DNA of 32,346 nt from a virus. The position numbers were made by a program, and so were the translations under genes. Location of the stretch: positions 1 through 32,346 of IMG/VR virus record IMGVR_UViG_3300032883_000050; one strand, written 5' to 3'. The notes below the pieces were generated by a model, which saw only the letters and a list, made by a program, of their open reading frames with translations, was not told the origin of the DNA and searched no databases. This document shows, piece after piece, positions 3,492 to 32,158 of the stretch. Position 1 is the stretch's first letter, and each line of letters starts with the position of its first letter.

Positions 3492-4700
3492 TTAGGTTTT
3501 GAAATAAAATAATGGTTCGTTGGGATTCGCAATGTCGAAATAGATCGATCCTGCCGCCCCAGAACCTGGGGCAGGCGCGCCCGAACCACTTAGAACAGGT
3601 GACGCTATATCTGACAGCATCGCCAACGTTCCCGCCTTGTCGGGAAACTTTACGGCGCGATAGGTCGTAAGCAAATCGCCTTGAAGTTCAACTTGCCCCG
3701 CACCCGCTAAGTCAGGGAACGTCAGCACCAAAGTCCCATTTGCGCCGCCATTTGCTCCAATACCGGGCTGGATATTGATTAGACCGCCCTGACCAGGCGT
3801 TATTCCTGCTCCATCTACCGCATTCCCGCCAAGCAGATTCAATACATTGCCCGTCTCGCCTTCGATGGTTGGCAGATTCGAGCGGATCGTCAAGCCAAGA
3901 GTGCTATCACCTTTTATCTTGCGAACGAACAGAGTGCTATCGGCAATCGTATATTTGAAATATTCTTCCGAACCGAACGCACCGCCGTTGTTGATTTGAA
4001 CTTCGGTGTCGTTACCAGCGGGTGGAGTTAGTGTAGAGCCAGGAATCGTAACGAGCGTCTTGCTACTTCCAGGCACATCGGTTACGGTGACACCCGCACC
4101 CGCAAAGTCAAGATTCGGTTCGGCGGGTAGTGGTGTGCCTTCGTCCTGGATCGTATGTCCCGCCGTAATCGCCACATCAGACGCCGCCGTGATTCGTCCC
4201 TGTTGGTCAACCGTGAAAGCGCCAACATGTGTCGCATCGCCGTAAGAGCTAGGAGTAACGGCAGTATTTGGAAGGTCGGTTGCGCCGATAGATTGAAATG
4301 CCGCTGTCGTTGCGCCTGTTGCGCGAAGGACTTGTCCCGCTGTCAGTCCGCTAACCGTATGGTCTGCGCCAAGTCCGCTCGTTAAAGCCAGGACATGAGA
4401 TTGCGCGTGGTGTTGATTGGCAGTAACACCCGTCAAGTTTCCATGCGCGTCGTGTCCAACCGTACCGTGAGCATGGTCGCTTGGCGCATACGCATTGTTT
4501 GACCCGACTGCTGATGATTGCCCATAGGCGGTTTGCGTGACAACCGTCGTGCCTTTGGCTGGAACGCCTAGCGATGTTTTCAAATCGCCAATTTCAATCT
4601 TCTTGGTTTCGGGCGTGGTCGCAGGATCGGTCACGACGACAGTCAGGTCGGTATCGGCTACGGAAGATGTTTGGTTGAGAGCTGTGATTTTTTTGTCCAT
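3492..4700 (-). CDS. Tail fibre protein
   Basis: The start was placed at the ATG giving MDKKITALNQTSSVADTDL (402 aa), 1 nt after the upstream stop; an earlier in-frame start at 4730 would lie inside the previous gene. The N-terminus, with 'TDPATTPETKKIEIGDLKTSLG', is the usual opening of phage fibre or appendage proteins. Then come a His-rich stretch (HAHGTVGHDAHGN, NQHHAQSH) and the fibre repeat 'THVGAFTVDQQGRITAASDVAI'. The C-terminus has 'VKFPDKAGTLAMLSDIA' and ends in PLFYFKT. The His-rich segments may bind metal along the trimer axis, as in other phage fibres. Host recognition is the inferred role. Confidence 0.8.
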   Translation of the reverse strand: MDKKITALNQTSSVADTDLTVVVTDPATTPETKKIEIGDLKTSLGVPAKGTTVVTQTAYGQSSAVGSNNAYAPSDHAHGTVGHDAHGNLTGVTANQHHAQSHVLALTSGLGADHTVSGLTAGQVLRATGATTAAFQSIGATDLPNTAVTPSSYGDATHVGAFTVDQQGRITAASDVAITAGHTIQDEGTPLPAEPNLDFAGAGVTVTDVPGSSKTLVTIPGSTLTPPAGNDTEVQINNGGAFGSEEYFKYTIADSTLFVRKIKGDSTLGLTIRSNLPTIEGETGNVLNLLGGNAVDGAGITPGQGGLINIQPGIGANGGANGTLVLTFPDLAGAGQVELQGDLLTTYRAVKFPDKAGTLAMLSDIASPVLSGSGAPAPGSGAAGSIYFDIANPNEPLFYFKT

Positions 4701-4701
4701 A

Positions 4702-5208
4702 CTATGCCGCTTGCCAAAGCAATCTATCACTCGATTCAGTATTGATAATCTCGCCCGCTTCGGTCAACAAATAGCCGCTATCGCGCGCTAACATTTTCAA
4801 AACCATCTGCGTCGTAAATCGATTCGTCGGCGTGAACAAAATTTTTCCAAATGGGTCAAACAATGCTTCGGTTGCGGGCTTCGGTTCTCCGAGCGATTCT
4901 ATCCACGCTCCGCAATCGTATTTGTGCATCGCCGTATCGTTGCCGCTTGCCGTGTCCCAGGTGACACCGCGTTCGTCAGTGTATTTAAGATTGACGTTTG
5001 TCGAATGGCACTTCGTAAAACTGGCTTTGAGCAGTTCGCTTTCAAACTGCGAAATGTTTAGTGTGATGGTCTCTACTTGGTAGACGTTCCCCGATTCAAT
5101 CGCCAGCACAAGCCCTGTCAGTCCGCGCCCGTAAGTCGCGGGCGCATCGGGTCGGTCTGCATAGTTTGATTTGTCCGTGTGGAATGAAAAGCCGTCAAGG
5201 GTTATCAT
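4702..5208 (-). CDS. Dit-like tail protein, second copy
   Basis: A 168-aa protein clearly homologous along its length to the gene directly after the tape measure (10351-10785). Shared blocks include YADRP, LKASFTKCH, DERG, TEALFD.FG and TP..RFT. It has an extra 30-residue C-terminal tail (GYLLTEAGEIINTESSDRLL). The position of the other copy, immediately downstream of the tape measure, is that of distal tail (Dit) proteins, so both are called Dit-like by context; sequence alone does not prove it. The ATG overlaps the upstream stop as ATGA. This copy may form a second ring or an adaptor for the fibres encoded next to it. Confidence 0.75.
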   Translation of the reverse strand: MITLDGFSFHTDKSNYADRPDAPATYGRGLTGLVLAIESGNVYQVETITLNISQFESELLKASFTKCHSTNVNLKYTDERGVTWDTASGNDTAMHKYDCGAWIESLGEPKPATEALFDPFGKILFTPTNRFTTQMVLKMLARDSGYLLTEAGEIINTESSDRLLWQAA

Positions 5209-6236
5209 ACACCACTCACATCAACTGGGTTATACGTTGCAGGAAGGAACACCTCGCTTATTTGCCACGATAAACCATCATCTATACTGCAGACCGTTCG
5301 TCCATCTAGTGTTGGAATCAATATGGTGTTGAGTGAGTTGACGGTAGGCGCTACTAAAACTAGCGGGCAAGTATAATTTGTGTGTGTCCAGGTTGTTCCA
5401 TCAGTACTTCGTTCAATGGACAGCCCCACTCCCAGGACGAATGAAAAGCACAAGAGTGTTCCAAGTCGAGTAGACATTATGTACCCGCCGGAACTGTTTA
5501 CTTTGGCGAGCGTATCCGTTGACCAAGTGTATTGCCAAATGTCCACGCTGTCTGACAGATAAAAGTTGTCTGTGTCTCCGTATCGCACCGTTCCTGTGTT
5601 AAAGAAATTAGACTTGCCGCGCCAGGTAAATGAACCACTTTTATCAACCAATGCTACGCGTGTTTTTATTTTACCCACTGTATTCTGCCAAATAAATGCG
5701 CTTGACCCGTCGTGGCGCGGTGCGGTAATTGACACATCGGGATCATCGACATATCCATCGGCAGTTCCGAGATTCGCCCAAGTCGCTCCGTAATCTTGGC
5801 TACAATAAGTATCGAAATGCAACAATGTTTTGCTTACATCGACCCAGATAAATGACCCCCAGATTATACTTGGGTCAGAGAAATCATAGCGGAGAAATAC
5901 TTGTGGTTGTGTGTTTGGACTCCACCCCGTCACATAGATGTCCGAATCGTTAAACAACCATATCCCTAACGCAAAACTATTGCCAGCATCTTCCGAGTGT
6001 TGAATGTCTTGGTCAAACCAGGGTGTGTTGTAGTGGTAACTGTAAAGTATCACGCGGTCTGCCGTTGGCGTCGTAATGGCTTCGCGCGTTGCATCCCAGG
6101 TGTTGTGGGTTGAAACCACTGCCCCGTTCACCACTTTGCGAATTTCGTATGCCGTTCCGAATCCTAACGGTTGATGAACAAAATAGAATATACCTTGTGG
6201 CAACCCGCCGCTTGTTCCCCATCCCCATCTTGGCAT
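5205..6236 (-). CDS. Asp-box beta-propeller tail-tip protein
   Basis: A 343-aa protein with several sialidase/BNR-type Asp-box motifs (SxDxGxTW): SQDYGATW, STDGTTW and SIDDGLSW, and a degenerate SEDAGNSF. These mark a beta-propeller. No catalytic residues of a true sialidase can be assigned, so it is better seen as a carbohydrate-binding or structural propeller at the tail tip. Start ATG overlaps the previous stop by one base (TAATG); its own stop overlaps the next ATG (ATGA). It belongs with the propeller region of the large hub protein two genes upstream. Confidence 0.75.
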   Translation of the reverse strand: MPRWGWGTSGGLPQGIFYFVHQPLGFGTAYEIRKVVNGAVVSTHNTWDATREAITTPTADRVILYSYHYNTPWFDQDIQHSEDAGNSFALGIWLFNDSDIYVTGWSPNTQPQVFLRYDFSDPSIIWGSFIWVDVSKTLLHFDTYCSQDYGATWANLGTADGYVDDPDVSITAPRHDGSSAFIWQNTVGKIKTRVALVDKSGSFTWRGKSNFFNTGTVRYGDTDNFYLSDSVDIWQYTWSTDTLAKVNSSGGYIMSTRLGTLLCFSFVLGVGLSIERSTDGTTWTHTNYTCPLVLVAPTVNSLNTILIPTLDGRTVCSIDDGLSWQISEVFLPATYNPVDVSGV

Positions 6237-13258: not shown

Positions 13259-13819
13259 TCACGCTGTCGATATTGTATTCGGAAATCGGCCGAGCGTTTC
13301 GCTCACCGCCTGTTCTGTGACTTGTGAGCGCCGTTGAATCGCCGCAAAGAGTTCGCCGTAGCCGTCGCCTGTGCCGACCGCGATATTCCAGATGTAGACA
13401 AACTTGTCGCCAGGATCAAGCGCAACCCCTTGCGCTTTCATCGATTCGCGCAATTGCGTGACGGCGCTTTTGTCCACTTCGCACTGAATCGCATAATCGG
13501 CAAAGACGCGCATTGCCTTTTCGTTGACCCAGGTTACTTTTGCCGCGTTCCATTCAGCCAGTAATCGCTGATAGGTCGGATGAGACGGATTCGGTTCGTC
13601 AATCTTTTCGTTATCGCCATAGTCAATCTTTTGCGTCGGCGGTTTCGGCGCGGGGAATTGTTTTTCGTATTCGGTGTGCAGTTGCGCCGTGACCGTGAAT
13701 GGACACTTGCGATAGCGCAAAACAATCCCAGTATCCTTACAAATAAATTCGTGAGGATATTCTTCGGGTCGATTACTTGTTGCAGGCATTTTCACTGCTC
13801 CCTTCTTTTTACTTGACAT
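13259..13819 (-). CDS. Tail assembly chaperone, first frame (gpG-like)
   Basis: A 186-aa acidic protein; the ending 'YIWNIAVGTGDGYGELFAAIQRRSQVTEQAV' region and its place directly before the tape measure identify it as the tail assembly chaperone, which coats the tape measure during tail assembly and is absent from the virion. Two starts are plausible: ATG at 13819 (AAGAAGA upstream) or ATG at 13789, giving MPATSNRPEE, with the better AAGGGAG site 8 nt upstream. The 13819 start codon overlaps the -35 box of the divergent HNH promoter. The frame ends in TGA at 13259 inside the open second frame. Confidence 0.8.
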   Translation of the reverse strand: MSSKKKGAVKMPATSNRPEEYPHEFICKDTGIVLRYRKCPFTVTAQLHTEYEKQFPAPKPPTQKIDYGDNEKIDEPNPSHPTYQRLLAEWNAAKVTWVNEKAMRVFADYAIQCEVDKSAVTQLRESMKAQGVALDPGDKFVYIWNIAVGTGDGYGELFAAIQRRSQVTEQAVSETLGRFPNTISTA

Positions 13820-13841
13820 TAAATCTTCTTTCTGTTATACT
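13813..13841 (+). promoter_or_regulatory. Sigma70 promoter of the first HNH cassette
   Basis: TTGACA (13813-13818), a 17-nt spacer, then TATACT (13836-13841): near-perfect consensus on the plus strand. The -35 hexamer overlaps the CAT that is the start codon of the minus-strand tail chaperone gene. It points at the HNH gene 13970-14488, giving an untranslated leader of about 120 nt. Confidence 0.85.
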
Positions 13842-13847
13842 ACTTTC

Positions 13848-13946
13848 GCTTGTAAGAAATCGCGTTTTTGTTTTACTACTCTGTCGCCCCTGATTCGGGA
13901 AGATTTGCTAAACGCATTTCTTACAAGCCCCGATGAAAGGGGCGAC
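13848..13946 (+). ncRNA. Leader RNA of the first HNH gene, 19-bp stem with pseudoknot
   Basis: Positions 13848-13860 pair perfectly with 13916-13928 (13 bp). After a single bulged C at 13861 the pairing continues with 13862-13867 against 13910-13915 (6 bp). The 42-nt loop contains GTCGCCCCT (13883-13891), which is the exact complement of AGGGGCGAC (13938-13946) downstream of the stem, so an H-type pseudoknot is possible. A competing small hairpin CCCC/GGGG (13928-13942 region) overlaps it. The stem begins close to the expected transcription start. It is followed by CGTTTTTGAAAGGA, which holds the ribosome binding site, so the fold could gate translation or termination. No known class was recognised. 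Confidence 0.65.
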
Positions 13947-13969
13947 TTTCGTTTTTGAAAGGATGATAC

Positions 13970-14488
13970 ATGAAACAAATTCCCTTATCGCTTCAGGGCA
14001 AACACGGCGGGAACTTCTACACGTTGGTAAGTGACATTGATTCTAACCTAACTCTACTTAGGTGGTTTGCTGTCAAAAAAGACGGTGATCGAATCTATGC
14101 CGCAAGACATTTGCCGAAACTTATATCATTCCGTAAGGAAATCATATATTTGCACGATGTCATTGCCCAGCGTATAGGATTGGACACCAAGAGTTTTCAA
14201 GTTGACCATCGTAACAATAACTCCCTGGATAACCAAAGACACAATCTACGCGAGGCAACCTATTCTCAAAATAGATGCAATCGCGGAAAAACTTGCGAAA
14301 ACCAGAGCGGCTACAAGGGTGTTTGTTGGCACGAACACACCCATAAATGGAAAGCATCTATTCAGATAAAAGGAAAATCTATCTATCTGGGAATATATCC
14401 AGAAAAGGCAGACGCCGCACGCGCTTACAATGATGCCGCTAAAAAATATCACGGTGAGTTTGCTGTTCTGAATGACATCAAGGATTGA
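13970..14488 (+). CDS. HNH homing endonuclease with AP2 DNA-binding domain
   Basis: A 172-aa free-standing endonuclease. The HNH part is around residues 60-100: the first His at 62 (YLHDVI), D79-H80 in QVDHRNNN, and N92 in RHNLREAT. Residues 112-168 form an AP2 domain (SGYKGVCWHE, KWKASI, YLGIYPEKADAARAYN, AAKKYHGEFAVLN), which binds DNA. AAAGGA lies 6 nt before the ATG. It is transcribed against the tail operon and sits between the tail tube candidate and the tail chaperone. It nicks or cuts DNA and so spreads itself among related phages. A weak hairpin (14494-14512) follows the stop but has no T-run. Confidence 0.92.
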   Translation: MKQIPLSLQGKHGGNFYTLVSDIDSNLTLLRWFAVKKDGDRIYAARHLPKLISFRKEIIYLHDVIAQRIGLDTKSFQVDHRNNNSLDNQRHNLREATYSQNRCNRGKTCENQSGYKGVCWHEHTHKWKASIQIKGKSIYLGIYPEKADAARAYNDAAKKYHGEFAVLNDIKD

Positions 14489-18834: not shown

Positions 18835-19445
18835 GCGGCAACCTGTTCGTAGGATTGCGTCGTCGTTCCCCAGGAGTGAGAGCAATACGGCTCTCGATCC
18901 GCCTTCGCTAATGCACCCGTATAATGCTGGGGCAAGAAATATGCACTCGGATAGATTTTTACCTTGCCGACGTAGCCCTTGATTGTTTGCGTCAAGTATC
19001 CGGGACCAACCTGTAACCAAGCAGGGTGTTCGTTCATATCGCGCATGAATGTAATTCCCGCCACTAACTTTTTAATGAGCGTGTTGCCTAACTCCGCGCC
19101 CATGATTCCGCTTGCGACAAGTCCAGGTCTCACTGTTTCCGATTCGTAGACGGCAAAGAATTCGTTATCAAGCAAATCGTCGGTCAGGGGTCGTAGTGCA
19201 ACCGTATCGGCATCGATGTAGATTCCGCCGAATCTTTCAAGCATCTCGAATCGCGCCACGTCGCTTTTGCCGTTCCAGGTATTGATCTGTTGCCACTTGT
19301 CAAGATTTGAAAGCAACAGCGGCATATCCCAGTCGCGCCATAGTTTGTACTCAAAACTCGGATTGAGTTTTTGCCACGTCGCCATATTCTCAAATGGCGC
19401 GGACTTGTCGCCAAACCAGCATTGATGAATAATGCGCGGTATCAT
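18831..19445 (-). CDS. Glycosyltransferase with DXD motif (GT32 / OCH1-like)
   Basis: The start was set at ATG 19445 (MIPRIIHQCWFGDKSAP), overlapping the upstream stop as ATGA; the in-frame extension to 19589 lies inside the previous gene. The 204-aa protein shows the hallmark IPRIIHQCWFG opening, then SDVARFEMLERFGGIYIDAD at residues 61-80 with the DXD motif at 78-80 that binds the metal-nucleotide-sugar. This is the Gly_transf_sug family, used by bacteria and phages to add hexoses to polysaccharides or glycoproteins. It is encoded between another glycosyltransferase and DUF1360. Confidence 0.88.
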   Translation of the reverse strand: MIPRIIHQCWFGDKSAPFENMATWQKLNPSFEYKLWRDWDMPLLLSNLDKWQQINTWNGKSDVARFEMLERFGGIYIDADTVALRPLTDDLLDNEFFAVYESETVRPGLVASGIMGAELGNTLIKKLVAGITFMRDMNEHPAWLQVGPGYLTQTIKGYVGKVKIYPSAYFLPQHYTGALAKADREPYCSHSWGTTTQSYEQVAA

Positions 19446-20620
19446 GCGGATTCTTTCATCTTGCGCGCTTTCGGCGCGCGTTTGACCTTGACCGCTTCTT
19501 CGATATATTCCGCACATCCGCAAATCACATCGCCTTCTAGGGCTTGGCATATCCCGCGCGCATCGACAAAGTTTCTTGGGTGTCCGCACTCAATACATAC
19601 TTTGATTTCGACTTGCGGCACAGGCGGGGGACTGGGTAGAATCGGGTTCTGTTGAATCACTTGCGGCAGTTCGGGCTTGCGTGCTTTCAAAACGCTGTTC
19701 GGCACTTGTCGCCAGTTGCCACGATTGTATAATTCTTGCGCGTGAATGTTTTTGACCTTGACAAAGCGCGTCATCGGGTCGTTTGCGCCGCGATAGACCG
19801 TTCCGTCTTCCATCCGAAACGGAATCGCCCCCTGATTCGTTCCCAGATATTCAAATACCATTTCGTCGCCTGCAACCGAGTCGGGGGGCAGGGCGTTGAC
19901 GAGCATTTGCGCGGCTTGCGTTGCCTTGCTATTCTTTGGACAGCATCCCATGAGCGGAATCCTTTCGCTGATATAATCTGCAAATAATTGTTGTTCGTCG
20001 TTATAAATCTCTGCGTGTTTCCTGTAATGCGCCTCTCGGTTTATGCCCGTTCCGACTCGATAGAGAATTAGTGGAACTGGGACGCGCTCGCCGCAAAAAC
20101 CATTCACGCCAAGTTGAATATACAGCAACCAATCTTCCCAGCCTTGAATGACTTCATCGAATCCACCGATTGATCGAATAGATTCAGTTGGCACGAGTGC
20201 CGTGACCGTATGAATGTTTGAACGCAAAAGAAATTTGCGGTCATACGGATAAGCAGGGTAGTAGTCGTTATCGTGAAACGAATCGCCGTAGAGATAATTG
20301 GCGGTATAGTCTGGGTTGGCATACGCTCGCAAAAGTGATTCAATGGCAACATCAACCGCCATGTCGTCTGCGTCCAAGAAAAACACAAATGGCGTGTCTA
20401 CTTGTTCAATGGCTAGATTGCGCGCAATCGCCGCGCCCTGGTGTCCTTTGGTATTCACCACCTTGACACCTGCATTGATGCGAAGCGGTTTGCCCGTATC
20501 ATTGGCAACGATTATTTTATGGGCTTGAATTGTTTGATTTGTTAAAGAACGTAAAGCATCTGGCAGATATTTAACATGAATGTCTGCAACGGGCATCACC
20601 ACCGTTACAATGGGTTTCAT
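19442..20620 (-). CDS. Family 2 glycosyltransferase with C-terminal zinc-ribbon-like tail
   Basis: A 392-aa protein. Residues 1-220 are a GT2 domain: VTVVMPVADIHVKYLPDALR, IIVANDTG, FFLDADDMA (DXD at 83-86), and WEDWLLYIQLG with the ED acid pair typical of the active site. Residues about 255-305 form a second small beta domain (FEYLGTNQGAIPFRMEDG..YRGAND), which I recall as a phage-specific module. The C-terminus has CIECGHPRN...C...CGC, a zinc-ribbon-like cluster, and a basic end (KRAPKARKMK). AAAGGA lies upstream of the ATG. The HNH promoter begins at the base right after its start codon. Confidence 0.85.
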   Translation of the reverse strand: MKPIVTVVMPVADIHVKYLPDALRSLTNQTIQAHKIIVANDTGKPLRINAGVKVVNTKGHQGAAIARNLAIEQVDTPFVFFLDADDMAVDVAIESLLRAYANPDYTANYLYGDSFHDNDYYPAYPYDRKFLLRSNIHTVTALVPTESIRSIGGFDEVIQGWEDWLLYIQLGVNGFCGERVPVPLILYRVGTGINREAHYRKHAEIYNDEQQLFADYISERIPLMGCCPKNSKATQAAQMLVNALPPDSVAGDEMVFEYLGTNQGAIPFRMEDGTVYRGANDPMTRFVKVKNIHAQELYNRGNWRQVPNSVLKARKPELPQVIQQNPILPSPPPVPQVEIKVCIECGHPRNFVDARGICQALEGDVICGCAEYIEEAVKVKRAPKARKMKESA

Positions 20621-20649
20621 TTGACTTTTAATCCTTTGAGAGTTATAAT
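20621..20649 (+). promoter_or_regulatory. Sigma70 promoter of the second HNH cassette
   Basis: TTGACT (20621-20626), a 17-nt spacer, then a perfect TATAAT (20644-20649) on the plus strand. The -35 box begins directly next to the start codon (CAT, 20618-20620) of the minus-strand glycosyltransferase. It points at the HNH gene 20767-21258. Confidence 0.88.
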
Positions 20650-20659
20650 CATCTCAAAT

Positions 20660-20745
20660 GAATGACTTGGGGAAGCAAGTCGTTTCTATTATCTCGATTC
20701 AATCGCCTCATTTGCGCGGGCTTCCCCCCGCGTGAGTGAGGCGAT
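20660..20745 (+). ncRNA. Leader RNA of the second HNH gene, two hairpins with kissing loops
   Basis: Hairpin 1 pairs 20660-20669 with 20676-20685 (10 bp, two G-U) and closes the 6-nt loop GGGAAG. Hairpin 2 pairs 20702-20720 with 20727-20745 in an uninterrupted 19-bp stem (three of the pairs are G-U) and closes the 6-nt loop CTTCCC. The two loops are exact complements, so a six-base-pair kissing interaction is possible. The element lies about 5 nt after the expected transcription start and ends before CGTTTTGAAAGGA, which includes four T and the ribosome binding site. It could work as an attenuator or translation gate. No described RNA class was recognised. Confidence 0.7.
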
Positions 20746-20766
20746 CCGTTTTGAAAGGACAAACGA

Positions 20767-21258
20767 ATGTCTACAATTATTGTTGTAAAAGGAACATCTA
20801 ACCACGTCGTTAGCGAACACAATGCCGACCTTGCAGAAAAACATTGGTCAGTTGATCGCGGCGGTTATGCTCGCCGTAACATCGGCAGTTTTATTTACAA
20901 GGGCGAAAAACTTCATCGCGTAGTTGCCGAGAGAAAATACAATCGCAAGATTGCAAAGGGTGAATACGTTGACCATATCAACGGCGATATTTTCGATGAC
21001 CGCGATGAGAACATCCGCATTGTCACGCCCACGCAAAGCAATCAAAACAAGCGCAAGCACAAAGACAACACAAGCGGTTATATCGGCGTTGTCCTTCACA
21101 AAGAATTAAAGTTCAAGAAATACAACGCCCGTATCCAGGTCGATGGAAAAGAAATCTCGCTTGGGTATTATGCTACCGCCGAAGAAGCACATCGCGTTCG
21201 TCGCGCGGCTGAGTTAAAGTACTTTGGCGAATATGCCCGCCAAGATGATTACGATTGA
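20767..21258 (+). CDS. HNH homing endonuclease with AP2 domain, second copy
   Basis: A 163-aa endonuclease with the same build as the copy at 13970: HNH residues H50 (KLHRVV), D69-H70 (YVDHINGD) and N82 (DENIRIVT), followed by an AP2 domain at about 103-156 (SGYIGVVLHK, YNARIQVDGK, SLGYYATAEEAHRVRRAA). The two proteins are clearly related in domain plan but differ much in sequence, so they are not a recent duplication. AGGA lies 7 nt before the ATG. It is transcribed against the surrounding capsid and glycosyltransferase genes, and followed at once by a strong terminator. Confidence 0.93.
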   Translation: MSTIIVVKGTSNHVVSEHNADLAEKHWSVDRGGYARRNIGSFIYKGEKLHRVVAERKYNRKIAKGEYVDHINGDIFDDRDENIRIVTPTQSNQNKRKHKDNTSGYIGVVLHKELKFKKYNARIQVDGKEISLGYYATAEEAHRVRRAAELKYFGEYARQDDYD

Positions 21259-21261
21259 ATC

Positions 21262-21297
21262 GAGAGGGGTTAGAGAAAATCTAGCCCCTCTCTTTTT
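21262..21297 (+). terminator. Intrinsic terminator of the second HNH gene
   Basis: GAGAGGGGTTAGA (21262-21274) pairs with TCTAGCCCCTCTC (21280-21292) in a 13-bp stem with a 5-nt loop, followed by TTTTT (21293-21297). It ends plus-strand transcription 3 nt before the minus-strand capsid stop codon. On the minus strand no T-run follows the hairpin, so capsid-operon transcription should pass. Confidence 0.92.
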
Positions 21298-21300
21298 ACA

Positions 21301-22779
21301 CTAACTGAACTTCTGTGGGTAGAATGTAGGAGCGGGATTGTACAAATTTCCGCCATCCGGGTTGTATCCGTACTGATCGCCTGGTCTCATGCCAGTGAAT
21401 CCACGTTCCTTTTGCGTGATGGTGTAGCAAGCGTTGGTAAAGCGCACCGCCAGGAACGGCGTGCGGAGAATCAAACGCTTTTTGGTGATGGCTTGCAACT
21501 GCGTGCAGGTGTTCTTCGGCATCTTGCGGACGATCAAGTACTGTCCGCCGCCGAAGGTCGAGACCGTGCCAGCAGGTGTCAAGTAAGCCGCCGCTTCCAT
21601 CGCTCCGCCTGGGGTATCCCAGTTGAAATACTGCCAGAACAGAGACCGATTGCCGCCTGCGGTCGTGATCGGCACGAGGTAGAATTCGGAGCAGAAGTTA
21701 CCCGCGTTCGGCACGACTTCCTCGTCTACGAAGTCATCGATGATAACGGGGATTTTCTGGTCGTAGACCGTGATAAGGTATTGACCCGCGCGCATTTCGT
21801 TGCGGAGTTCGATCTGCCGCTGCGCTTCGACAAACTGGGTCGAGCCAGTATTCAGGTTCGTGCATTGAACGGTGAAGTAGGCGCACGGCCACACTTCCGT
21901 CAACTTCATAAACGTCGAATACCGCATGACGAGCGCCCACCGCACAGGATATTGACCCGTGCGCTTGGCGAGATAGTCCTTGATGCGGACGGCTTCGCTG
22001 ATTTGCTGAACGTAGGTTCGCGCGTTCGTGTCCATCAACGCCGAGCCAAAGTTCACGACAAGCGAGTCAGCGGCGGGGCATGGTTGCTGGGTCGTGGCGT
22101 CAAGATAGCCCGTGTTGACCAACTTGGAAAGACCGAAGTATTCCAAGTATCCGCCCGTGTGCGTCGAGGTGTTGCCAGGATTGCCGTCAAAGGCAAGGTG
22201 ACCGTATCGGCGCGAAATATCGCCAATGAGTTCCACCATGCGCTTGCCCACTTCGTTCTGCAATGCCTGTTGATAGGGGAGCGGTGATGGGGGTTCGATG
22301 TTCTGCCAGGGATTGCCAATCAAGGTCGGGTTGACGAACTCGCCTTGATTGATGAGCCGACCAACGTTCGTGATGTCGATGGTTGTCGAATCTAGTTGGA
22401 TGCGCCCGAACGGAAAGATTTGCTTGCAGATTTTCAAACTGCCCGCAACGGGACTATCCGCGCAGTTCTCTGCTGGCTCTTCGCCACTGGATGCGGTTTG
22501 CCCCGTGAGGATCGGAAAGATTTCATCCTCATAGTTAGAGCGCATATACGGCACGACGTTCGGATCGGCAATACCCGCCAGTGGCATCACCATCGCGTTT
22601 TCGATGGGCTGTTCCATTCCGAGAACGCCCAGGAAACTATTTGGGCCGTGCAAATAGTTGCCCTGGTTACCACTCACCGTTTTCGTTCTCACTCGATTCG
22701 CAACGCGCGAAATGATTTTATCCATTAGCGCGTCCGCTTCGAGGTCTTGCATCTGACTGATTTGTGCTTTGTCAGGCAT
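21301..22779 (-). CDS. Major capsid protein
   Basis: The start was set at ATG 22779 (MPDKAQISQMQDLEAD, 492 aa) because AAAAGGAGAAAACG stands directly before it; the in-frame extension to 22809 lacks such a site. It follows the protease-scaffold gene and is the only protein of fitting size. A helical N-terminal part (residues 1-40) may be a delta-domain removed during maturation. Residues about 36-64 carry GNYLHGPNSFLGVLGM, also present in the protease-scaffold protein. Later parts (VGKRMVELIGDI, RWALVMRYSTFMKL, GNRSLFWQYFNW) fit an HK97-type capsid fold by position; exact subfamily unknown. Confidence 0.85.
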   Translation of the reverse strand: MPDKAQISQMQDLEADALMDKIISRVANRVRTKTVSGNQGNYLHGPNSFLGVLGMEQPIENAMVMPLAGIADPNVVPYMRSNYEDEIFPILTGQTASSGEEPAENCADSPVAGSLKICKQIFPFGRIQLDSTTIDITNVGRLINQGEFVNPTLIGNPWQNIEPPSPLPYQQALQNEVGKRMVELIGDISRRYGHLAFDGNPGNTSTHTGGYLEYFGLSKLVNTGYLDATTQQPCPAADSLVVNFGSALMDTNARTYVQQISEAVRIKDYLAKRTGQYPVRWALVMRYSTFMKLTEVWPCAYFTVQCTNLNTGSTQFVEAQRQIELRNEMRAGQYLITVYDQKIPVIIDDFVDEEVVPNAGNFCSEFYLVPITTAGGNRSLFWQYFNWDTPGGAMEAAAYLTPAGTVSTFGGGQYLIVRKMPKNTCTQLQAITKKRLILRTPFLAVRFTNACYTITQKERGFTGMRPGDQYGYNPDGGNLYNPAPTFYPQKFS

Positions 22780-22812
22780 ACGTTTTCTCCTTTTCAAATT
22801 GCGCGTCACGCG

Positions 22813-27504: not shown

Positions 27505-29007
27505 TTACCACAGTTTTAGTATTCGCGCCGAAGCCATTCCGAGGCAGACTGCTAAATCTATTTTCATTGTCGCACTGCGTTTTACCAACCTTAAATGCTC
27601 ACCTTCCGTTTTCGCATTTGCATTCGTAACGTGTTCGGTGAGTTCCGCTTCGCCTTGATGCTCGATTTGTCGCGCGATAATCAGGTCGCGGAGTTGCTTG
27701 TCTGCAATCGCCCTGTCCGTTCCCTGGTTGAACTCGCTAAAGTGAACTTTCATATCGCGCTGTAGGCGTGTGCAAAATGAATGAAGTTGATAGGGGTCAT
27801 AGCAAACTTGGGCAATATAGTTTTCCTTGACAAGTCGCCTCAACTCTGGCTCGATTTCCGAATCAAAATCAAGTTGTCCGCCCTTCGGCGGTTTCCATGC
27901 TCTAGCGTAACGCGGCGTCAAAATGTGGCGAACATTTCCCTTGCCATCTTTCACATCGCGTCGTGAGAGCATCAGCATCCCGAAACAATCAGATGACACA
28001 CCCGCGTCGAGCGCAATCACCATCGGCAAATGGGTTTCGACGGGTGGGGCATTAGTTACTTTGCAAGCGTTCCACCACTCGGCAGGAACGAATGTATCGC
28101 TTGACGTTATCCATTCGTTTTTGTGCATCCGCCTAAATTCGGAGTCGGTTAAACTCGTCGTCTCTTGGCGGTAGTATTCTTGCGTCTGCCAGTCCAAACG
28201 AACTTGCGTATTCCACAAAACGAACAGGCGCGCATTTCTATCCGCGTAAACTTCTAGCCCTGGTATACCCAGATCAATTTGCAATTCTTTTTGAACACCC
28301 TGGGCGTATAGTGATTCGAGTATTTCCGATTCGCCGCTGTAACCCGCATAGGTGTCGATCCATCGAAACGACTGACCGAACTTGGTTGGACTAAGCGTCA
28401 ACTCTGCCCATAGTTTTTTATGCGCCGTTTGAGTTGCCGCCCAAAGTTCTGTCCATTCGAGCATATCGTCGTTGCCGCCCGCTTCGCCGCCTGGGTCAAC
28501 GGCAACCGATTCGATGATGCTGTCATTCGGCAGATAGACTTTGTGCTGAATCGTTTTGATCGATGCGCGCCATTCGGGATTGAGTCGAATCGATTCCGTG
28601 ATAGCGTAGAAGACGCGAGAGTCGGCTTGCTTTAGATCGTTACCGACCAGACGTATTCGCGCACCTGGTTTCGAGAACGCCATCCACATTACAACAGCGG
28701 CGGCAATCGTCGTCTTGGCAGATTTCTTTAGGTCGCTCCACACGATAGTAGAGTAACGGAATAGTCCGCGTTCGTCGCGTGATAACGCCTCAGTCAATAC
28801 CGCTTGCTGATATGGCGCAAGCGTAATTGGCTTTAATGTTTCGGGAATGTAAAAGTGCGTCGTGATCCATGCGGCTGGGTCACTGGGCTGCCCCCGCTCC
28901 TGCTTCGCCCGCCGCGTCAGTTCCGGTGGTTGGCTCTGTGCTTGTCGGTTGCGATGCGCTTGTAGGGATAGCCGCGCCTGCGGCGATAAGTATTGATCGA
29001 GCATCAT
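27505..29007 (-). CDS. terL: Terminase large subunit
   Basis: A 500-aa packaging motor. Walker A-like SDLKKSAKTT (91-100), a variant without the classic GxxxxGKT; Walker B-like DDMLEWTELWA (180-190). The nuclease half has ALDAGVSSD (D334), CYDPYQLHS (D404) and KIDLAVCLG (D484), the three acidic residues of the RNase H-like fold. Together with the small subunit it cuts concatemeric DNA and pumps it through the portal. ATG 29007 overlaps the small-subunit gene by 128 nt, much more than other junctions here; no later start codon gives a sensible N-terminus. Confidence 0.93.
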   Translation of the reverse strand: MMLDQYLSPQARLSLQAHRNRQAQSQPPELTRRAKQERGQPSDPAAWITTHFYIPETLKPITLAPYQQAVLTEALSRDERGLFRYSTIVWSDLKKSAKTTIAAAVVMWMAFSKPGARIRLVGNDLKQADSRVFYAITESIRLNPEWRASIKTIQHKVYLPNDSIIESVAVDPGGEAGGNDDMLEWTELWAATQTAHKKLWAELTLSPTKFGQSFRWIDTYAGYSGESEILESLYAQGVQKELQIDLGIPGLEVYADRNARLFVLWNTQVRLDWQTQEYYRQETTSLTDSEFRRMHKNEWITSSDTFVPAEWWNACKVTNAPPVETHLPMVIALDAGVSSDCFGMLMLSRRDVKDGKGNVRHILTPRYARAWKPPKGGQLDFDSEIEPELRRLVKENYIAQVCYDPYQLHSFCTRLQRDMKVHFSEFNQGTDRAIADKQLRDLIIARQIEHQGEAELTEHVTNANAKTEGEHLRLVKRSATMKIDLAVCLGMASARILKLW

Positions 29008-29531: not shown

Positions 29532-29559
29532 TTGACAAATAATGCTTTTCGCATATAAT
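29532..29559 (+). promoter_or_regulatory. Sigma70 promoter of the small plus-strand operon
   Basis: Perfect TTGACA (29532-29537), 16-nt spacer, perfect TATAAT (29554-29559). It drives the genes from 29608 to 31072. AAAGGGAG lies before the first ATG. Confidence 0.9.
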
Positions 29560-32047: not shown

Positions 32048-32158
32048 TCATTCCCCTTTCAGAAATAAAAATATGCCGAGCAATTTACAGCGTCGGCAAT
32101 GAGGCAGACCGCGTCCGCCAGTGATTGTATGCAGTTGGTTCAAGAAATTAGAACGCAT
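32048..32158 (-). CDS. Possible 36-aa leader peptide gene
   Basis: A frame of 36 codons (MRSNFLNQLHTITGGRGLPH, then CRRCKLLGIF, ending FLFLKGE) lies in the 180-nt leader after the minus-strand promoter. Its TGA lies just upstream of the ATG of the holin-like gene and overlaps an alternative ATG (32051). The site before it (GGAACGTCA) is weak. It has a CxxC pair. It could be a real small gene, a translated leader, or chance. Confidence 0.3.
   Translation of the reverse strand: MRSNFLNQLHTITGGRGLPHCRRCKLLGIFLFLKGE

Follow-up and report, generated by a model that had tools for sequence, protein, structure and literature searches.

Morons are autonomous phage genes that carry their own promoter and terminator, and small pseudoknot riboswitches of the preQ1-II and SAM-II kinds hide the ribosome site. 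For the homing endonuclease genes I-TevI, segB, and mobE (of Aeh1), a promoter goes together with an RNA fold that masks the ribosome site, and seg43 of Aeromonas phage 25 has a stable hairpin just 5′ of this site (PMC2988022, PMC3014915). Moreover, T4 segD lies antisense beside the capsid gene (PMC2988022, PMC3014915), and I-TevI represses its own promoter (PMC2988022). The IPA-HNH homing endonuclease genes combine an HNH domain with a C-terminal AP2 (PMC10448857).

The stretch of DNA analysed here (the window) is a virus record of 32,346 bases, from a phage whose host phylum is probably Chloroflexota. Its minus strand carries structural genes, a terminase, a probable capsid, and a glycosyltransferase gene among them, and this operon is interrupted by two plus-strand HNH genes (HNH1 and HNH2), each belonging to a unit (unit 1, 13813–14488; unit 2, 20621–21297). 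The operon genes referred to below are:

13259–13819, minus strand: phage gene downstream of unit 1 in the operon, starting at 13819 or 13789
19442–20620, minus strand: glycosyltransferase gene (Pfam PF00535), next after the capsid gene in the operon
21301–22809, minus strand: probable capsid gene, assigned from gene order/position and conservation
27505–29007, minus strand: terminase of the structural operon

Neither Pfam nor PHROG returned a match for the probable capsid gene (21301–22809), which was used as marker of the unit-2 site in relatives. Short-pattern capsid and terminase searches yielded no or few relatives, and an alignment-based capsid search succeeded.

An earlier, sequence-only reading had described both units as a TTGACW-17-TATAMT promoter placed on a phage start codon, a knotted leader RNA, and an HNH-AP2 gene. 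The observation of two promoter-leader-HNH units was confirmed, with caveats, and their parts (stems and hairpins as predicted) are:

13813–13841, plus strand: unit 1 promoter TTGACA-17-TATACT (11/12 match)
13848–13860, plus strand: unit 1 P1 5′ arm GCTTGTAAGAAAT, beginning 6 nt past the –10 box
13883–13891, plus strand: unit 1 P2 5′ arm GTCGCCCCT, within the P1 loop (partner 13938–13946)
13916–13928, plus strand: unit 1 P1 3′ arm ATTTCTTACAAGC (partner 13848–13860, 13 bp perfect)
13938–13946, plus strand: unit 1 P2 3′ arm AGGGGCGAC (9 bp with 13883–13891), then TTTCGTTTTT
13953–13963, plus strand: unit 1 copy of the shared segment TTTTGAAAGGA, ribosome site AAAGGA at 13958–13963
13970–14488, plus strand: unit 1 endonuclease gene HNH1, 172 aa (HNH_3 and AP2, PF13392 and PF00847; phrog_99)
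20621–20649, plus strand: unit 2 promoter TTGACT-17-TATAAT (11/12), abutting the glycosyltransferase start codon
20660–20685, plus strand: unit 2 leader hairpin 1, loop GGGAAG at 20670–20675
20702–20745, plus strand: unit 2 leader hairpin 2, 19 pairs, loop CTTCCC at 20721–20726
20749–20759, plus strand: unit 2 copy of TTTTGAAAGGA, ribosome site AAAGGA at 20754–20759
20767–21258, plus strand: unit 2 endonuclease gene HNH2, 163 aa (HNH_3; phrog_99)
21262–21297, plus strand: unit 2 intrinsic terminator, 13-pair stem, T5

Both promoters, called by match to the sigma-70 consensus only, are the two best sites in the 13–22 kb region, and the whole window holds four sites of at least 11/12 on both strands, where shuffled windows average 0.5. 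The unit 1 promoter also stood out against shuffles of the region immediately 5′ of P1 (p = 0.002). The proposed placement on a start codon holds for unit 2, where the –35 box directly adjoins the CAT at 20618–20620 of the glycosyltransferase gene. At unit 1, however, it is uncertain: the –35 box overlaps the CAT at 13817–13819, the first of two possible starts of the gene 13259–13819, and the alternative in-frame ATG at 13789 has the better ribosome site. Two 12/12 sigma-70 sites elsewhere in the window, at 29532 (plus strand) and 32260 (minus strand), are probably ordinary phage promoters; the latter is followed by a leader of about 200 nt with nested stems, ahead of a gene starting at 32051.

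The leaders of both units are about 100–120 nt long. In unit 1, the arms follow the order P1-P2-P1′-P2′, so that the two stems interlock (p = 0.003 versus shuffles; fold z –3.3), and interlocking was thus borne out there. In unit 2, the interlock score alone reaches only p = 0.10–0.12 versus shuffles, but the two-hairpin fold has a z of –5.2, the 6-nt loops GGGAAG and CTTCCC complement each other at every position, and hairpin 2 contains three G.U pairs on the plus strand; if the loop pairing is counted as a predicted kissing contact, unit 2 would match the same order. The leader sequences of the two units, described as diverged in the earlier reading, are unrelated apart from the common segment TTTTGAAAGGA, which takes in the ribosome site and whose 11 nt exceed both the random expectation (7) and the random maximum (9). 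In the predicted folds, neither P1 nor P2 of unit 1 and neither hairpin of unit 2 contains the ribosome site AAAGGA, and the U-tracts of both units are weaker than those of two of the leaders described below (L043 and L213). A role of the unit 1 structure as leader of the minus-strand gene was considered and rejected, no good promoter being seen by eye on that strand. The unit 2 leader further contains a 14-nt stretch (20692–20705) that perfectly complements 21252–21265 at the 3′ end of HNH2, touching the terminator stem, where shuffles give at most 11 nt. A guide-like search of the window returned this same gene end as the best match of the unit 2 leader (p = 0.04), and no unusual match for the unit 1 leader. 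Within the window Rfam gave no match above the gathering threshold, and a nucleotide search of the leader against known phages gave no meaningful match.

HNH_3 and phrog_99 were found in both genes. AP2 clears the Pfam cut-off in unit 1 only, the C-terminal AP2-like part of HNH2 remaining below it although its phrog_99 match extends over this part; both proteins would accordingly be placed with the AP2-HNH (IPA-HNH) homing endonucleases. They have indeed diverged strongly (36% identity), and HNH1 is nearer to HNH proteins of other phages (49% to L083) than to HNH2, so that the two units look like separate acquisitions. Both are antisense to the structural operon and have a G+C content of 0.40–0.46 versus 0.52 for the genome; no clear terminator was seen downstream of unit 1.

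Searching for the arrangement elsewhere, as the earlier reading had suggested, showed that the order of promoter, P1-P2-P1′-P2′, usually a U-rich tail, and ATG recurs before about 12 other HNH genes, with unrelated sequences. The closest parallel is L074, an Anaerolineae contig with the same succession as at unit 2 (capsid gene on the minus, HNH on the plus, and glycosyltransferase on the minus strand), in which 2 nt separate the promoter TTGACA-17-TACAAT from the start of the glycosyltransferase gene, and the leader consists of two long interlocked stems. Interlocked leaders also precede HNH genes in L043, L021, L156, L194, L213, L173, L179, L263, L317, and L327, in L176 (recognised by eye), and in L201 (judged by eye only). 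In many members P1 starts 4–10 nt past the –10 box and a U-tract follows P2; in the wider class, a U-rich tract usually comes after the second stem, and then the start codon within 9–23 nt.

This class is delimited by topology, not by sequence. Since thresholds were chosen after examples had been seen, and several leaders were picked by eye for the promoter, U-tract, and G.U tests, the following p-values are descriptive: 5e-8 for a promoter 5′ of P1, combined over 14 HNH leaders (individually non-significant in 7 of them); 3e-4 for T in the nine bases after P2 of these 14 leaders (63% versus a background of 30%, with little T in unit 2, L074, and L176); 6e-4 for G.U versus A.C pairs (46:18 over 16 leaders, of which two belong to non-HNH genes); and 3e-4 for the frequency of interlocked leaders among genes preceded by a gap of 70–500 nt (11 of 49 HNH genes versus 21 of 385 others). 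Among HNH genes packed into operons, only 3 of 89 had such a leader. The reverse strand also yields an interlock score, the geometry being invariant under reverse complement, so that the strand was assigned from the promoter, the U-tract, and the G.U bias; the excess of G.U over A.C indicates that the structure resides in the RNA of the HNH strand. Interlock matches in the G+C-rich L132, L136, L137, L138, L152, and L153 look like chance and were excluded. Rfam, run on twelve leader-bearing loci, reported only a tRNA and a permuted tmRNA, both in the viral contig L213 (permuted tmRNA and tRNA at 4510–4739 and 304–373) and away from its leader.

Leader-like structures were also noted beside other genes. 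An interlocked leader with a U-tract and AAAGGA precedes a non-HNH gene in L190 (about 1450–1590; MAATKEVPLKDIVIDGGTQQRP..., ParB-like by eye). L127 has two interlocked structures behind its capsid gene (5489–5564 and 5685–5796), the second of which precedes a non-HNH gene (MYPAFEKIET...) with a CGTT and ribosome site like those of units 1 and 2. In L136, a leader-like stem right after the capsid gene is followed by a short frame, MEIELPRGKHAIIDESTDGVLNFPDA, that by eye resembles a truncated HNH.

A second kind of leader, R1, is a conserved promoter-leader behind the capsid gene in at least 13 relatives:

L110, 5592–5684: R1
L111, 2879–2971: R1
L112, 3516–3613: R1
L113, 5602–5697: R1
L114, 5582–5685: R1
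L115, 5574–5671: R1
L117, 5587–5691: R1
L118, 5576–5676: R1
L119, 5808–5911: R1
L120, 5525–5624: R1
L121, 5619–5724: R1
L129, 5949–6053: R1
L342 (Chloroflexota genome): R1 between capsid and epimerase

In its layout, P1, which has 20 pairs and takes in the TATAAT box, is followed by a conserved TA, a hairpin, GCTTCC, P1′, and GGAAGC. In P1, 15 of the 20 pairs are changed on both sides, and 93% of cells pair versus 38–50% when the alignment is slid. P2 is formed by GCTTCC and GGAAGC, and in several members the ribosome site consists of GGAAGC or of the purine-rich copy that comes next, so that P2 could hide it. R1 would thus be a candidate new structured RNA family of Chloroflexota-linked phages with an anti-ribosome-site pseudoknot, and Rfam returned no match for the R1 loci tested. 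A large multiplicity of R1 per genome was rejected, each record having one copy, on its own strand. An R1 covariance model found no match in the window, unit 2 included, in a default-filter search, and scored 1.6–3.2 bits at unit 1 with filters off; the likeness of the two kinds of leader is therefore one of topology.

R1 occurs without HNH in nine cases (L111, L112, L114, L115, L117, L118, L119, L121, and L342), a count that leaves out L120, where the frame behind R1 was not identified. The nearest readable gene after it encodes an epimerase in L111, L112, L114, L115, L119, and L121, whereas in L118 it encodes a small protein of membrane type; in L117, a stretch without HNH was read behind R1. 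In three other phages (L083/L110, L113, and L129), an HNH gene lies between R1 and the epimerase gene.

Relatives with an empty site, all of them distant, were found for both units and differ in what the gap contains. The HNH-free capsid-glycosyltransferase gaps of L032, L141, L145, L148, L149, and L151 are short and lack such a leader; as far as distant relatives can show, promoter, leader, and HNH would go together at this antisense site. At the unit-1 site of G001, in contrast, the homologue of 13259–13819 has no HNH upstream, and the 99-nt gap (L084 1369–1467) holds an interlocked structure on the operon strand, formed by CGCGCACGGC/GCCGTGCGCG with CGCTTC/GAAGCG (p = 0.007; 13 bits against the R1 model). 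Conversely, HNH genes without promoter and leader occur in L020, in most of the best 80 relatives, and in cultured phages, and those of Anaerolineae and of the family of a Treponema genome are mostly leaderless. On a tree of 106 HNH proteins, 19 of them with a leader, the leader label changes 17 times versus a shuffled mean of 17.6; half of the branches of this weakly resolved tree are poorly supported, so that the result is an absence of clustering and not proof of scatter. Two further contigs carry notable HNH genes: contig 67 of a Chloroflexi genome (L036/G007) has tandem HNH genes of the window's HNH family without leader, and L116 (a contig also represented by L013) has an HNH gene antisense immediately behind the capsid gene, with its 5′ end off the contig.

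From the two units in the window, it had been proposed that promoter, leader, and HNH gene travel jointly as a single mobile module. Of this proposal, the autonomous promoter, the recurrence of a structured leader with other AP2-HNH genes, and the insertion between operon genes are supported by the sequences; unit 2 and L074 have promoter, leader, and HNH gene at the same antisense site, where other relatives have none of them, and both units of the window are richer in AT than the genome. Both kinds of counter-example named in the earlier reading, namely leaders in HNH-free relatives and HNH-bearing relatives lacking promoter and leader, do occur. Nevertheless, a single fixed module now appears quite improbable: the three leaders (unit 1, unit 2, L074) share no relationship in sequence, the HNH genes of L083, L113, and L129 sit behind R1, and leaders without HNH (the nine R1 phages), HNH genes without leader, and the unclustered leader label together indicate that the leader is not inseparable from the HNH unit. 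The promoter-leader architecture looks like a gene switch and not like a piece of a fixed mobile cassette. Should the leader instead be a resident phage regulatory RNA, behind which HNH genes insert and borrow its promoter and translation start, then R1 would be the case in point, with nine phages lacking HNH and three having it directly behind; this is true or plausible at the capsid-epimerase site, and the HNH-free structure of L084 points the same way. As an account of the units in the window it is fairly unlikely, however, because units 1 and 2 and that of L074 run against the operon, which leaves no obvious resident gene as former user of the leader; moreover, R1 matches neither unit, and the HNH-free relatives have no leader at the capsid-glycosyltransferase site.

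The position of P1 4–10 nt past the –10 box and the U-tract after P2 in many members would also suit a gene for a trans-acting small RNA, made of promoter, knot, and terminator-like stem and perhaps working with the HNH protein, with HNH expressed by read-through. We regard this as very doubtful, given that both units of the window show weak terminator features, that neither conserved sequence nor an Rfam family was found, and that the guide-like search returned nothing unusual for unit 1 and its own gene end for unit 2. Autorepression by I-TevI (PMC2988022), together with the extension of P1 across the –10 box in the R1 family, could further suggest that the interlocked repeats work as DNA, either as a cruciform or as an operator for the endonuclease, yet the preponderance of G.U over A.C on the HNH strand and the lack of conservation of the repeat sequences make this scarcely credible.

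On balance, we lean slightly towards units 1 and 2 being independently acquired, moron-like, free-standing AP2-HNH homing-endonuclease units in which the leader attenuates expression or sets its timing. Each unit would have its own sigma-70 promoter, antisense in an intergenic gap of the structural operon, as read from the sequence, and from the position of the –10 box the transcript would begin at or near the first arm of P1 of a leader of about 100 nt with the predicted fold. Because in the wider class a U-rich tract usually follows the second stem, with the start codon coming within 9–23 nt, the leader would most likely be an attenuator or delay element. P2 and its U-tract, or structure beside the ribosome site, may hold down a potentially harmful nuclease, and P1, interlocked with P2, may alter the ease with which P2 forms. 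The leader would then be a regulatory element of several genes and not an obligatory part of a mobile endonuclease. Promoters and leaders above chance, the T-rich stretch after P2, the excess of interlocked leaders before HNH genes with a gap of their own, the G.U bias, the use of the same antisense site in L074, and the T4 precedents argue for this attenuator-leader reading, whereas the ribosome site outside the main stems and the weaker U-tracts in units 1 and 2, the merely predicted kissing contact of unit 2, and the delimitation of the class by topology argue against it; the observations would fit attenuation, timing, and mRNA stability alike. More tentatively, it is possible that the leaders form a class of sequence-unrelated but topologically conserved phage attenuators, associated with HNH and some other phage genes, to which R1 would be related as a new RNA family. 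On that reading, a terminator-like stem would be interlocked with a stem at the 5′ end of the transcript, which in R1 would include the –10 box, and the P2 of R1 would hide the ribosome site.

The timing of homing-endonuclease expression is so far known mainly from T4-like phages, and leaders that are knotted and preceded by a promoter of their own suggest that a second, widespread way exists in phages outside this group. One candidate RNA family is gained as well, namely R1, which covaries strongly and has no match in Rfam. Should the interlocked attenuator prove real, it would amount to a small RNA switch, open to testing, whose topology lets one stem govern the other.

When compared with the known systems, the units resemble morons in placing promoter, gene, and (in unit 2) terminator between two operon genes and in being AT-richer than the genome; they differ in having an endonuclease gene, a structured leader, and an antisense orientation, and unit 1 lacks a clear terminator. 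With the IPA-HNH genes they share domain order and phage context, although the AP2 part of unit 2 stays under the Pfam cut-off and the accessible part of the IPA-HNH source does not describe the promoter-leader arrangement (PMC10448857). R1 is like the preQ1-II and SAM-II riboswitches in that one strand of its P2, GGAAGC, coincides with the ribosome site or overlaps it in several members, and unlike them in its lack of an Rfam match; in neither unit of the window does P2 contain the ribosome site. As in T4-type endonucleases, a promoter lies immediately before the gene, the leader RNA is structured at or next to the ribosome site, and the units are inserted in an operon, segD being likewise antisense next to a capsid gene. 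In contrast to the single hairpin and the late promoters of the T4-type genes, they have two interlocked stems and sigma-70 consensus promoters, their ribosome site lies outside the stems, and the arrangement occurs in many unrelated phages. The units are most likely a variant of T4's hairpin-controlled endonucleases.
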